Shown: positions 1,242 through 45,905 of the stretch, piece after piece
Numbering within the stretch: position 1 is the first letter of the stretch
Layout of the letters: each line of letters begins with the position of its first letter
Source of the DNA: Lysobacterales bacterium
GTDB taxonomy: Bacteria > Pseudomonadota > Gammaproteobacteria > Xanthomonadales > Wenzhouxiangellaceae
Length of the DNA stretch: 50,230 nt
NCBI GenBank assembly: GCA_022360675.1
Contig: JAKSCJ010000372.1
Location: 1-50,230 of the forward strand
Direction of reading: 5' to 3'
The notes under the pieces: generated by a model
What the model was told of the DNA's origin: nothing
Database searches by the model: none
The model's input: the letters and a program-made list of their open reading frames with translations, nothing else
Program-made: the position numbers and the translations under genes

Positions 1242-1799
1242 ATGAGCCAACACGCTTTTATCTTGGTCGATCTGCAAAACGATTACTTTCCCAACGGTCG
1301 CTGGCCTTTAGCGGGCATTAATGAGGCCACCGCCAACGCCCGTAGTGCGCTACAGCAAGCCCGCCAGCGCGGTGATTTAGTGATTCACGTACGCCATGAG
1401 TTTTTGCAGGAAAACCCACCCTTTTTCAGTCCTAATACTGAAGGCGCACAGATTCACGAAAGCCTGCAACCACTGGCTAATGAAACCGTTGTTCTGAAGC
1501 ATTACCCCAACGCATTCCGTGAGACTGCTTTAAAAGCCGTACTGGACGAACACAATATTCAAGCCGTCACCATCGTGGGTGCCATGAGCCATATGTGCAT
1601 CGATGCTACGGCCCGTGCGGCCGCAGATTTTGAATACCAAACCACGGTAATCGCCGATGCCTGCGCCACGCGCGATCTAGAATTCAACGGCCATACCGTG
1701 GCCGCCGCTGATGTGCACGCGGCTTATATGTCGGCTTTGGCTTTTGGCTACGCCCAAGTCATTAACACGCAACAATTCCTTGCCGACGAGGCCGCCTGA
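1242..1799 (+). CDS. Isochorismatase-family cysteine hydrolase
   Basis: A 185-residue single-domain protein of normal length for the isochorismatase-like cysteine hydrolases. The family triad is visible: Asp10 in ILVDLQNDYF, Lys86 in VLKHYPNAF, and Cys119 in GAMSHMCIDATAR, preceded by the conserved cis-peptide region VGAMS. Such enzymes hydrolyse amides or related bonds (nicotinamidase, ureidoacrylate and similar amidases); the substrate cannot be read from the sequence. The open frame extends upstream to 1116, but the ATG at 1242 puts the first beta strand at the N-terminus as in homologues, and the upstream residues overlap the regulator. Its stop overlaps the start of the GST gene by one base (TGATG), indicating translational coupling. 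Confidence 0.88.
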   Translation: MSQHAFILVDLQNDYFPNGRWPLAGINEATANARSALQQARQRGDLVIHVRHEFLQENPPFFSPNTEGAQIHESLQPLANETVVLKHYPNAFRETALKAVLDEHNIQAVTIVGAMSHMCIDATARAAADFEYQTTVIADACATRDLEFNGHTVAAADVHAAYMSALAFGYAQVINTQQFLADEAA

Positions 1800-2476
1800 T
1801 GTCTGAATCACAAACCGCGCTGCTCTACCACGCACCTTTAACCTGTTCATTGGCGGCACGGTTTTGTGCCGCCGAAGCCGGAGTCGATATTCAACTACAG
1901 CCGTTGAATTTGCTCAACAAAACGTTGGTGGGTCATGGTGTGGAAAGCGCACCTTCGTATTTGGATATTCATCCTTTAGGGCAAGTCTCGGCATTACGTA
2001 CCGCCAACGGAGAATTCATCACTGAAACCGCAGTGGTACTGATGTGGTTACAGCATCAATCCAGGCAAACAGACTTTAAACGCGATGTGGATCATACAGA
2101 ATATTTCCAATTACTTCGCTGGTTAAATTTCTGTGCCACCGAATTACACAAGCAGATTTTCCGTATCGTTTTTTATCAAGAAGCCACCGATCCGGTAAAA
2201 GCAAAGATTCGCGATTTAGCACCGCCCCGCTTGGCCCTGCTAGATCAACACTTATCCGATCGACCCTTTTTATTGGGTGATACTTTCTCGGCCGCCGATG
2301 CCTATTTGACTTGGTTTTTTGTGCTATCCGATCGTGCGCAATTAAACCTTGAGCCTTACCAACAGCTGTGTGATTACCGCCAACGAGCCTTGGCGCGGCC
2401 ACTGATTCAGCAGTTAATCGCCGACGACTTAACGATGGATGCAGCGATTGGTCAGAACATTCAGTCGTCTTTATAA
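1799..2476 (+). CDS. Glutathione S-transferase family protein
   Basis: A 225-residue cytosolic GST-like protein. Residues about 8-88 form the thioredoxin-like domain, with LTCSLAAR near the active-site position and the glutathione-binding turn ETAVVLMWL; residues about 95-215 form the all-helical domain with SAADAYLTW. It is coupled to the upstream cysteine hydrolase by a 1-bp overlap and followed after about 120 bp by a truncated haemoglobin gene, so the three may form one transcript serving detoxification or stress defence. A GST role in conjugating or reducing small electrophiles is family knowledge; the true substrate is unknown. Confidence 0.85.
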   Translation: MSESQTALLYHAPLTCSLAARFCAAEAGVDIQLQPLNLLNKTLVGHGVESAPSYLDIHPLGQVSALRTANGEFITETAVVLMWLQHQSRQTDFKRDVDHTEYFQLLRWLNFCATELHKQIFRIVFYQEATDPVKAKIRDLAPPRLALLDQHLSDRPFLLGDTFSAADAYLTWFFVLSDRAQLNLEPYQQLCDYRQRALARPLIQQLIADDLTMDAAIGQNIQSSL

Positions 2477-2596
2477 GGCGGCTCTGGAAACAACATTGAT
2501 GTGGCGCAAGATCGCCACCATCATGATTGCTAAGCTGTTGTTTTCTCTCCCCACCTATGGGCAGTGTCCAACATTGCCCTGCACGAGTGCTTAGCC

Positions 2597-3070
2597 ATGA
2601 CCGAAAGCCAAACCACACCACCGCCTGCTGCCAAGCAAGATTCAGCCATTCCGCCCTACGGCCAAGACGACACCACCTTTCAATCGGCCGGTGGCGTGGA
2701 AGGTATTCGTCATTTAGTGGATCGTTTCTACGACATCATGGGCAGCAAGCCCGAGTATGAAAAAATCCACCGCTGGCACCCCGACGAAACCGAGTCCCGC
2801 GATAAGTTGGCTCGCTTTCTGTGTGGCTGGATGGGCGGACCGCGTTTATTCCGCGAAAAATACGGGCCCATCGCCATTCCTAAAGTCCATGCGCATTTAA
2901 ATATCCAATCGGCCGAGCGCGATCAATGGCTGAACTGCATGTCCGAAGCGCTGGAAACCCAGGACTACCCCGAGTCGCTAAAAGCCTATTTACGCGAGCA
3001 ATTCAAAGTGCCTGCGGGCCGAATTCATACCGTATGCACCCGTATCCACGGCAATGAAGGTGCGGAGTAA
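2597..3070 (+). CDS. Group II truncated haemoglobin (trHbO-like)
   Basis: 157 residues from the ATG at 2597. After a Pro/Gln-rich leader of about 30 residues comes the 2-over-2 globin fold: GGVEGIRHLVDRFYDIM with Tyr45 at the B10 position, a central CGWMGGP, then VHAHLNI with His98 as the likely proximal haem ligand and Trp111 at the G8 position, a hallmark of groups II and III. It probably binds oxygen or NO, or supports peroxide chemistry. The frame continues upstream to a GTG at 2564, an alternative start that would add 11 residues; neither start has a strong ribosome site. It is the last gene of the GST group. Confidence 0.85.
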   Translation: MTESQTTPPPAAKQDSAIPPYGQDDTTFQSAGGVEGIRHLVDRFYDIMGSKPEYEKIHRWHPDETESRDKLARFLCGWMGGPRLFREKYGPIAIPKVHAHLNIQSAERDQWLNCMSEALETQDYPESLKAYLREQFKVPAGRIHTVCTRIHGNEGAE

Positions 3071-3081
3071 AGAATACTTCT

Positions 3082-3101
3082 TATCTACCTTCTGATAGAT
3101 A
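3082..3101. promoter_or_regulatory. TetR-type operator, copy 1 (TATCTA-N8-TAGATA)
   Basis: A perfect inverted repeat with 6-bp arms and an 8-bp spacer, just upstream of the -35 box of the TetR gene. The same arms and the same spacer length recur at 3821-3840 and 3887-3906. A weaker match with only the right arm intact lies at 3133-3152, on the other side of the promoter. Confidence 0.7.
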
Positions 3102-3105
3102 GAGG

Positions 3106-3134
3106 TTGACTTTCCATGCAGGTACCTCTATTAT
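3106..3134 (+). promoter_or_regulatory. Sigma-70 promoter of the TetR gene
   Basis: TTGACT at 3106-3111 and TATTAT at 3129-3134 are separated by 17 bp, close to the sigma-70 consensus. The element sits between operator copy 1 (3082-3101) and a partial operator (3133-3152), so bound repressor would block it: a clear autorepression layout. Confidence 0.6.
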
Positions 3135-3164
3135 TCAACCTATCGATAGATAGACAACCTTTGA

Positions 3165-3749
3165 ATGAACGAACTCAACGCCACCGCACATAAAATTTTG
3201 GATGTGGCCGAACGCCTCACCCAGCTGCACGGCTTTAATGCTTTTAGCTACAAAGCCTTGCAGGATGAGGTGGGTGTCAAAACCTCCACCATCCATTATT
3301 ACTTTCCCACCAAGCAAGACTTAGCTTTGCGTTTGGTGGAGCGGCACGGAGTGCGCTTTGCTGAGTTATTAAAGCAAATCGATGGCACACACACCGAGGC
3401 GATCGGCAGAATCAATGCACTGGCTCAGGTGTATATCGATACCCTAAGCCAAGGTAAATTCTGCATGTGCGGCATGCTGGCCAGCGATCTACTGGCATTG
3501 CCAGAGCAAGCCAACCTGCGCTTACAAGAGTTCTTCCAACAGGTGGAAGCATGGTTAGCTAAAGCACTGGTTCTGGGCCAAGAGCAAGGCCGTATTCACA
3601 GCGGTATCGATATCGAAGGTACGGCATCGTTACTGCTTTCAACACTGGAAGGCGGCATGTTAATCGCTCGTGCTCACGGCTGTAGTGCTTATTTAGAACG
3701 CGTGATGAACACACTTATGCAGCAAATTGGCAAGGCGTATACTGAATAA
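3165..3749 (+). CDS. TetR/AcrR family transcriptional repressor
   Basis: A 194-residue TetR-family protein. Residues about 6-55 hold the conserved helix-turn-helix (ILDVAERLTQLHGF, then YKALQDEVGV and STIHYYFPTKQDLAL); the rest is the helical ligand and dimer domain. It is flanked on both sides by copies of a TATCTA-N8-TAGATA palindrome, in its own promoter and before the SDR gene that follows, which points to autorepression and control of the SDR/hydrolase pair. The start at 3165 fits the family N-terminus, although its ribosome site is weak. The inducing ligand is unknown; the controlled enzymes suggest a carbonyl or ester-like compound. Confidence 0.92.
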   Translation: MNELNATAHKILDVAERLTQLHGFNAFSYKALQDEVGVKTSTIHYYFPTKQDLALRLVERHGVRFAELLKQIDGTHTEAIGRINALAQVYIDTLSQGKFCMCGMLASDLLALPEQANLRLQEFFQQVEAWLAKALVLGQEQGRIHSGIDIEGTASLLLSTLEGGMLIARAHGCSAYLERVMNTLMQQIGKAYTE

Positions 3750-3783
3750 CGGTTGAGCCCAGCCAAGTTATCGACCCTATTAG

Positions 3784-3808
3784 AAAGAGGCGATTACATC
3801 GCCTTTTT
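3784..3808 (+). terminator. Rho-independent terminator after the TetR gene
   Basis: Stem AGGCGAT / ATCGCCT with loop TAC, an A-rich left side and TTTTT on the right. It separates the TetR transcript from the SDR promoter region. Confidence 0.7.
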
Positions 3809-3820
3809 ATTGGCAAGTTT

Positions 3821-3840
3821 TATCTACCTATAAGTAGATA
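3821..3840. promoter_or_regulatory. TetR-type operator, copy 2 (TATCTA-N8-TAGATA)
   Basis: A perfect inverted repeat with arms and spacing identical to copy 1; here the arms extend to 7 bp (TATCTAC / GTAGATA). It lies 107 bp upstream of the SDR start codon and pairs with copy 3, the two copies being offset by 66 bp. Confidence 0.7.
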
Positions 3841-3886
3841 GATTTATAACTCCAGGTGCATACGGCACCTATTTTTTGAAACTAGC

Positions 3887-3906
3887 TATCTATCTATTAG
3901 TAGATA
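3887..3906. promoter_or_regulatory. TetR-type operator, copy 3 (TATCTA-N8-TAGATA)
   Basis: A perfect copy whose arms extend outward to 9 bp (AGCTATCTA / TAGATAGCT, 3884-3909). It ends about 20 bp before the SDR start codon, a position that would block transcription start or clearance. Confidence 0.7.
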
Positions 3907-3927
3907 GCTGCATTATGGAATAATGAA

Positions 3928-4695
3928 ATGACCACTCAATCCACAGCATTACTCATCGGCGGCTCCAAAGGCATGGCTTTTGCCACCGCACAACGTTTAG
4001 CGCAACGCGGTGTCGATTTAATCCTGGTGGCCCGCGACGAGCAGGCATTGCAACAGGCCCGAGATACCATCGTGTCGCAGCATCCAGTACGCGTCAGCAC
4101 GATTAGTGCCGATTTACAAAACTCTGCCGATGTCGATCAAGTGATCAAAACTATTGATGGCTTGGACCATGCCATTACTTACCAGCTCAACGCCGTGGGT
4201 TATTTCAAACCCATTCAGTTTTTAGACCACAAGGCTGAGGATTATCAAATTCAACATCGCTTAAACGAATCGGTGTTTTTTATTACTCAAGCAGTCGCAC
4301 GAAATATGAAAAACCATGGCGGCGGCAGCATTGTGAACATTGGCTCTATGTGGGCTAAGCAAGCCATTAAAGCCACGCCGTCGTCGGCTTATTCCATGGC
4401 CAAAGCTGGCTTACATGCCCTTACCCAACACCTGGCCATGGAACTGGCCGATCATCAGATTCGTGTGAATGCCGTGTCTCCAGCGGTGGTGCAAACCACC
4501 ATCTTCAAAGCCTTTATCGACGAACCGGAAATTCCCCAAGCGCTCAGTGCCTTTAATGGTTTGCATCCCATCGGGCGTATCGGTCAGGTCGATGATGTAG
4601 CTGCCACCATCGATTTCTTACTTTCCGACGAAGCCTCCTGGATTACCGGTGCGGTATGGGATGTGGACGGTGGCGTTATGGCCGGCCGTAACTAA
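3928..4695 (+). CDS. Short-chain dehydrogenase/reductase (SDR)
   Basis: A 255-residue classical SDR. The Rossmann cofactor motif is a variant, GGSKGMA (residues 11-17), in place of TGxxxGxG. The NAxG-like motif is NAVG (88-91), the catalytic pair is Tyr155 and Lys159 in AYSMAK, and a candidate catalytic Ser is in VNIGS just before. Arg36 after the second strand hints at NADP(H). It probably oxidises or reduces a hydroxyl or carbonyl compound. It is preceded by two TetR operators and followed 41 bp later by an exported alpha/beta hydrolase, so the pair is probably one operon controlled by the adjacent TetR protein. Substrate unknown. Confidence 0.88.
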
Positions 4696-4736
4696 TAAAC
4701 AGCATCAATAAACATCAAAACAAAGGAATAACACTC

Positions 4737-5762
4737 ATGGGCAGTATCAATAAAACCATCTTCAGCGCATTGGCCTTTGCCCTTTGGGGCACATTGAACA
4801 GCCCGGCCTTATTGGCCGAGCCTTCCATGCAGCATCAACACACACAAACGATGCAACAAGAACAGCAATACCGAGTTCGCTACGGCACCGAAAAGGTCGG
4901 TGATTTAGATATTTTTTACCGTGAAGCGGGCAACCCGTCGAAGCCTGCGGTGGTATTGCTACATGGATTCCCCACCTCATCCCATATGTACCGAAAGCTA
5001 CTGGCCGAGCTGGGCGACGAGTTTTATTTAATCGCCCCCGATTACCCAGGCTTTGGCGATAGCAGCTTCCCTAGCCCCGATCATTTTGAATACAGCTTCG
5101 ATCATCTGGCCGAGGTGGTGGACCAGTTTTTAATTCAACGCCAAGTCAATCGTTACGTTCTCATGATTCAAGACTACGGCGCACCGGTGGGCTTTCGTGT
5201 GGCCTTAAAACACCCCGAAAAAGTGCAAGGTTTTGTGGTGATGAATGGTAATGCCTACGCCGAGGGTTTATCGCCTGAGGGTTGGGCCCCCATCATGAAA
5301 TACTGGGAAGATAAAGAAAACCCGCAAATTGAAAAAGACATTGCCGCTGCTTTGTTTTCGGATGCAGGCTTGAAATGGCAATACACCCACGGTACTCGCG
5401 AGCCTGAAAATATACTGCCCGACAACTGGAATTTAGATATCTTAAAATTCGCCCGCCCCGGTCAACATCGGGCTCAGTTAGATTTGTTCTACGACTATAA
5501 AAATAACCTACAGCATTATCCCGCATGGCAACAATACCTGCGCGAGACCCAACCACCCATGTTATTGGTCTGGGGCAAAAACGACGCCTTCTTCCCCGTG
5601 AACGGTGCTGAGGCTTATCGCCGCGATGTCAAAGCCATCGATTTTAATCTCTTAGATACAGGTCACTTCGCATTAGAAGAAGAAGGCGATTTCATTGCTG
5701 AAAAAATGCGCCACTTCTTAAGAGGTATCGATCAAGAAAGCAGTAAGATTGCCTCTCGTTAA
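4737..5762 (+). CDS. Exported alpha/beta hydrolase of the epoxide hydrolase/haloalkane dehalogenase type
   Basis: 341 residues with a Sec-type signal peptide (residues 1-27, hydrophobic core about 8-25, likely cleavage after ALLA). The hydrolase fold follows: oxyanion region LLHGFPTSS (74-82), nucleophile elbow IQDYG with Asp146 in place of the usual Ser, acid Asp283 in WGKND, and base His310 in DTGHF. An Asp nucleophile is typical of epoxide hydrolases and haloalkane dehalogenases, which act through an ester intermediate. Those families are usually cytoplasmic, so the signal peptide is notable; the protein probably acts in the periplasm. A strong AAGGA site precedes the ATG. It is second in the SDR unit and ends at a bidirectional terminator. 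Confidence 0.85.
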   Translation: MGSINKTIFSALAFALWGTLNSPALLAEPSMQHQHTQTMQQEQQYRVRYGTEKVGDLDIFYREAGNPSKPAVVLLHGFPTSSHMYRKLLAELGDEFYLIAPDYPGFGDSSFPSPDHFEYSFDHLAEVVDQFLIQRQVNRYVLMIQDYGAPVGFRVALKHPEKVQGFVVMNGNAYAEGLSPEGWAPIMKYWEDKENPQIEKDIAAALFSDAGLKWQYTHGTREPENILPDNWNLDILKFARPGQHRAQLDLFYDYKNNLQHYPAWQQYLRETQPPMLLVWGKNDAFFPVNGAEAYRRDVKAIDFNLLDTGHFALEEEGDFIAEKMRHFLRGIDQESSKIASR

Positions 5763-45139: not shown

Positions 45140-45905
45140 GCACAACCTCATCCATCAAGTTGTTACTTGTTTTTAAAGCATTTTTTCAAATTAAAATGAT
45201 TTGCTGGTAAGGCTTTGGGAAAAAATTTTGTATCGTCTCGATCCATATGCCAGTGCCGTCAAAACAGCATTAATTTTTATAGACACTAAGCTATATAGTT
45301 TTAACATCGCTTTCTTTTTTTAGCATATTATATCTAGCTATTGATAAAAACAATAAATTTGATTCAACAAGCTTAAACTGATGTCACATTAAAAAATGAA
45401 CATTCATTTAAAAACACAAAGGGAAACTGATCTGGTTTCATTCATAGCTAAACAGACTTACTTAAATAACACTAAACACCAGTAAATACGCTATTTACAG
45501 CACACAACATCGTATACAGAACAGTTTAATTGAAAATATTTCTTTCATAGCCGTTTGTTATACAGAACTAAATCAACTGAAATTAATTTTATCCCTAGCC
45601 ATACTCGGGCCTGTTTCAACAGAGAAGAAATGACTTCAACTCTGTAGAACAGGGACGTAAAAAAACTGGTGAGGGATAGCAGCTAGTCAACACTAATGTG
45701 ATTTCTGTTTAGCCATTGTATATAACTTTAATAACAATCCTTAAACCAACACTTAGCATCAAGAATCTAAATAATTTTAGTTTGAAGGCAGCGGGGATAA
45801 ATCGGTAAAGCCACGGCTTACCGAATGCTTAGCCTTGGTCGGGTATTGCCCGAATTCAACGCTAATGTCGCACTATTTACGGAGTCAAAAAGGAGTTTTT
45901 GAACG
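45140..45905. other. AT-rich intergenic region with a structured leader at its end
   Basis: About 765 bp between the divergent BAAT-type hydrolase and MauG-like genes. No gene seen; 45180-45600 is very AT-rich. The last 125 bp form a structured leader, listed separately. Confidence 0.55.
45785..45900 (+). promoter_or_regulatory. Structured 5' leader of the MauG-like gene
   Basis: Two hairpins: CGGTAAAGC-CACG-GCTTACCG (45803-45823, one bulged A) and TCGGG-TATTG-CCCGA (45839-45853), followed by an unstructured stretch and the ribosome site AAAAAGGAG. The piece AAAGCCACGG is reminiscent of a c-di-GMP-I riboswitch core but the rest of that fold is missing. The stable folds, just ahead of the gene, suggest RNA-level control or a new element; unproven. 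Confidence 0.35.

Follow-up and report, generated by a model that had tools for sequence, protein, structure and literature searches.

Our analysis of the window, that is, the whole stretch of 50,230 nucleotides, led us to identify four very probable operators of the neighbouring TetR repressor, located at its own promoter and before a gene encoding a short-chain dehydrogenase/reductase (SDR). We consider it highly likely that they form a local, negatively autoregulated TetR-operator circuit. The sequence itself establishes the sites, where they lie with respect to the promoter, their link to this TetR family, and that the genome has no others; from these we infer binding of the repressor, repression and release by an inducer. 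The locus is almost certainly an ordinary self-limiting switch, and probably one of the AltR type.

The first-pass annotation had described three exact copies of TATCTA-N8-TAGATA, and a pattern search of the 50-kb window found them at 3082-3101 (O1, TATCTACCTTCTGATAGATA), 3821-3840 (O3, TATCTACCTATAAGTAGATA) and 3887-3906 (O4, TATCTATCTATTAGTAGATA). It had also placed a near-consensus promoter between the first copy and a partial one, and the promoter scan located it there: a sigma-70-like tetR promoter, TTGACT-N17-TATTAT, on the + strand (3106-3134). O1 lies just 5' of its -35 box and a fourth, degenerate operator (O2, 3133-3153) directly 3' of its -10 box; no strand was assigned to any of the four sites. 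The tetR gene (3165-3749, + strand) encodes a repressor of 194 residues. O3 and O4 follow it, O4 approximately 21 bp 5' of the start codon of the SDR gene (3928-4695, + strand; Pfam), the predicted target. The next gene (4737-5762, + strand; Pfam and PDB relatives) encodes an alpha/beta hydrolase of the haloalkane dehalogenase/epoxide hydrolase type with an apparent signal peptide, and probably belongs to the same operon, a gap of 41 bp separating it from the SDR gene. A GstA-like glutathione S-transferase gene and a bacterial-globin gene (1799-3070) lie directly 5' of tetR, without an operator of the TATCTA-N8-TAGATA type.

Both domains of the repressor scored above the curated Pfam cut-offs (TetR_N, PF00440, 42.5 bits, cut-off 24; TetR_C_13, PF16925, 44.9 bits, cut-off 27). 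An N-terminal helix-turn-helix joined to a C-terminal ligand domain, together with a palindromic operator overlapping its own promoter, agrees with what defines the TetR family. The predicted fold (pLDDT 92) had 3on4, 2g7s and NemR (4yze) as its best structure matches; the modelled resemblance to NemR of Escherichia coli reached a TM of about 0.85 at approximately 21% identity, and NemR is characterized by autoregulation, a reductase target and cysteine-based sensing (PMC13178969). At the DNA level, the half-site CTATC coincides with the CTAT(C) of tetO, which differs in its 5-base spacer, whereas the spacing is that of CTAT-N6-ATAG, recognized by AmtR of Corynebacterium glutamicum (PMC2723105). 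AmtR, however, is a central nitrogen regulator (PMC2723105), and its similarity to the window TetR is confined to the N-terminal, DNA-binding region and does not extend over the full length.

The closest studied system is AltR, encoded in the thiosulfinate-tolerance (alt) cluster of the plant-associated Pantoea ananatis, a TetR repressor of its own promoter. The AltR box, CAATCTAC-N6-GTAGATTG, overlaps the -10 box of that promoter and is needed for repression, further boxes precede other alt-cluster genes, and Cys100 is required for the thiosulfinate response (PMC13178969). The arms and spacing of this box (ATCTAC-N6-GTAGAT) are identical in O3, which precedes the SDR gene, and O1, at the tetR promoter, reads ATCTAC-N6-ATAGAT, one base off. 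The motif was also found, with 0 mismatches, before the genes of two AltR-like proteins on enterobacterial plasmids. The two systems differ in their neighbours, alt genes in one case and the SDR and hydrolase genes in the other, and in the presence of two operators at each promoter in the window. No OsmC, CMD or thioredoxin gene adjoins the window tetR, and control of alt genes (altA-altJ) was not found for it.

In the mechanism that we propose, each tATCTAYC-N4-GRTAGATa copy would be occupied by one repressor dimer. At the tetR promoter, a dimer on O2, behind the -10 box and over the start point, and a second one on O1, 5' of the -35 box, would exclude RNA polymerase, and O4, with O3 5' of it, would bring about the same exclusion before the SDR-hydrolase operon. 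Such steric blocking of RNA polymerase (promoter occlusion) is likely, and it is the most economical reading. In the presence of the inducer the repressor would be released, and tetR and the enzymes would be made together. The inducer would most likely be a thiol-reactive compound or an electrophile that the repressor detects, in the manner of AltR and NemR, through its conserved Cys102 (together with Cys100), and the SDR and the hydrolase would act as detoxification enzymes. The weakest steps are what the enzymes do and what kind of compound the inducer is, and to thiol sensing, taken by itself, we would give an even chance.

The AltR sensor Cys100 probably corresponds to Cys102 of the window protein, which aligns with Cys100 of the AltR-like proteins L106 and L108. 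This idea comes from an alignment to plasmid proteins that are only about 27% identical, with C100-C101 in AltR facing C102-G103 here (C100/C102 in the window protein against C100/C101 in theirs), and that were recognized as AltR-like by cysteines at 100, 101 and 159 and by having OsmC, CMD and thioredoxin genes next to them, not by comparison with the P. ananatis AltR sequence. It is quite conceivable, if somewhat short of an even chance, that the circuit operates as described and responds to a conventional small ligand, such as an aldehyde or other metabolite handled by the SDR, the cysteines being structural. In favour of this, the regulated genes encode generic enzymes, and the family matches include the acrylate-responsive AcuR, at 49.7 bits, far below the cut-off of 247 of the NCBIfam model (NF051457), so that the window protein does not qualify as AcuR by this model. 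AcuR of Rhodobacter sphaeroides is, as here, a TetR repressor encoded by the first gene of its operon with an inverted repeat over its own promoter, but the arms of its operator (TAATAGAC-N6-GTCTATTA) differ from the window motif (PMC3017554). A structural role for the cysteines agrees less well with the invariance of Cys100 and Cys102 in an alignment of 11 proteins (A1), a C-x-C position of which one residue aligns with the AltR sensor, and an ordinary ligand less well with the frequent presence of redox or detoxification enzymes among neighbours throughout the family.

The arrangement of O1 and O2 was compared with that of relatives having a like promoter-operator geometry (L007, L009, L010, L011 and L012). 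The site at 3133-3152 had been annotated as a half-kept copy. It is indeed partial in that register, its core (CAACC-TATC-GATAG, 3136-3149) carrying one mismatch, but it amounts to more than half a site: a 4-bp shift yields a complete, perfect core dyad, CTATC-GATA-GATAG (3140-3153). Since the operator core of the five relatives begins right where the -10 box ends (for L011, under one of two alternative registers), this copy is the positional equivalent of their main operator, O2 beginning one base further from the -10 box. An O1-like site 5' of the -35 box was present in L007, L011 and L012, with O1 and O2 49, 49 and 51 bp apart (the window has 51 bp), so that operators bracket the tetR promoter in four lineages, and L009 and L010 have a single site before tetR.

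Looping or cooperative binding of paired dimers, O1-O2 over 51 bp and O3-O4 over 66 bp, would be suggested by the pairing of the sites, and the maintenance of an O1-O2 distance of 49-51 bp, about five helical turns, in the four lineages would be compatible with it. We nevertheless regard it as improbable. The O1-O2 spacing is already set by the abutment of both sites on promoter elements, and L009 and L010 have just the one site before tetR. As for the SDR side, the 66 bp offset reported between the two copies is right, but it amounts to 6.3 helical turns and is not conserved: relatives have before the SDR gene a single site, 20-30 bp from the start codon and equivalent to O4, and a terminator-like hairpin separates the two copies in the window. 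The proposal of looping or cooperativity between these copies therefore found no support. O3, judging from this comparison, is an addition of the window lineage, with no counterpart seen in relatives.

The region before the SDR gene contains two terminator-like hairpins. The first one, after tetR (3788-3808, AGGCGAT...ATCGCCTTTTT), came from repeat and terminator scans and is given here without strand, as the scan listed it on the - strand and the + strand T-run was read from the sequence; several relatives also have a hairpin and T-run after tetR, as judged by eye. The second one (3854-3878, + strand), a hairpin at 3854-3870 followed by a T-run, lies between O3 and O4. Upstream of the SDR gene, the promoter scan gave no prediction on the + strand. 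The hairpin-O3-hairpin-O4 order (3788-3906) looks as if a terminator-operator module had been doubled, or as if a gene had been lost and left a scar. In a tandem-duplication test for O3, an alignment of 55 columns scored 42 against a shuffle maximum of 39, and was not significant without the operators.

The association of tetR with the SDR gene is retained in most close relatives. The SDR gene follows tetR in L007, L009, L010 and L011, and also in L013, which is cut by a contig end and more divergent; the orthologues adjoining tetR are 67-70% identical in L007, L009 and L010 and 55% in L011. The hydrolase, 75% identical, is found near tetR in L009 and L011. The distribution of the locus (3165-5762) is patchy, as a homologue just 42% identical was present in only 1 of 36 further genomes from the same family and closer ones occurred in distant orders and classes, a pattern that suggests horizontal transfer.

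The motif is better described as tATCTAYC-N4-GRTAGATa, with the core CTAYC-N4-GRTAG, than as TATCTA-N8-TAGATA. Within the window, eight matches to TATCTA-N8-TAGATA were found at up to 2 mismatches, whereas 100 shuffles averaged 0.95 and never exceeded 4, and a matrix built from other genomes only ranked the sites at 3821 (30.9 bits), 3887 (30.3) and 3082 (22.4) as the top three; a further matrix match at 45331 (15.9 bits), between two unrelated genes, was taken as chance. A scan of the 3.91-Mb genome (97.5% complete), which the first-pass annotation had proposed as a means of finding the regulon, gave no exact copy of TATCTA-N8-TAGATA elsewhere, the three at the locus being the whole set. At up to 1 mismatch there were six places in all, three of them outside the locus, against five for a reversed-pattern control; outside the locus the motif is not above chance level, and the 1-mismatch sites there lack the conserved inner YC/GR bases. 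A genome-wide regulon was thus ruled out, and the predicted regulon is purely local. The exact core occurred at only seven places in the genome, among them two in the window tetR promoter (one of them the shifted O2) and another two at the promoter of a tetR paralogue located on a different contig.

At loci of TetR homologues 27-56% identical from Gamma- and Alphaproteobacteria, the same dyad closely precedes tetR and recurs before the following gene; the closer relatives of the regulator (43-56% identical) came from genomes labelled Marinicella, Arenicellales, Glaciecola, Micavibrio, Rickettsiales and other proteobacteria. Allowing up to 2 mismatches to ATCTAYC-N4-GRTAGAT and searching 120 bp before tetR, a site preceded tetR at 21 of 42 homologous loci (0.29 expected from shuffles) and followed it at 21 of 42 (0.24 expected); these loci include related ones and are not independent events, yet they span several classes and protein identities of 27-56%. 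In many distant homologues the motif is missing or its outer arms are different, and for the homologues L103 (Pantoea agglomerans plasmid) and L105 (NAH7) there was no operator within 2 mismatches of it. TetR homologues at L064, L066, L067, L069, L071 and L078 adjoin ChrR-like cupins, proteins of the metallo-beta-lactamase fold and glutathione S-transferases, several of these loci having the same operator before the downstream gene. The recurrence of the dyad in the same two places in several orders and classes of proteobacteria, together with the match to the AltR box, makes it very probable that the motif is the clear binding site of the adjacent TetR that the first-pass annotation had predicted. 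That the copies instead belong to a different regulator, or represent a short mobile repeat with no relation to the window TetR, is very improbable: the first 8 kb do contain three regulator genes, of the AraC, TetR and LysR types, and the arms are short and AT-rich, but the motif is not scattered through the genome, tracks TetR homologues in unrelated neighbourhoods of distant bacteria, and shares its core with the TetR paralogue of the same genome.

This paralogue (L056, contig C441, 4751-5284) is approximately 33% identical to the window TetR, and its promoter contains two core dyads 57 bp apart with different outer arms (AACCTACC, CCCTATC). The differing outer arms may keep the two repressors apart.

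In summary, the observation of the first-pass annotation is real and was in the main well interpreted: the repeats are very probably TetR operators. Our work does not reveal a new kind of regulation; it adds a refined motif, its clade-wide conservation, the position of the fourth site, a local regulon and the link to AltR. Only tentatively do we propose a broader view, in which a large and mostly unstudied TetR_C_13/AltR-like clade would have in common a cysteine sensor and one operator code, in which clade-specific outer arms flank the CTAYC-N4-GRTAG core, and would control, through operators bracketing the promoter, an undescribed SDR-hydrolase detoxification unit in several proteobacteria. 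If so, the outer arms would keep paralogues within one genome apart. Our results link an unnamed enzyme cluster to a possible thiol or electrophile signal. Furthermore, the operator is readable from sequence alone for a whole TetR clade, allowing the prediction of targets and providing repressor-operator pairs ready to test.
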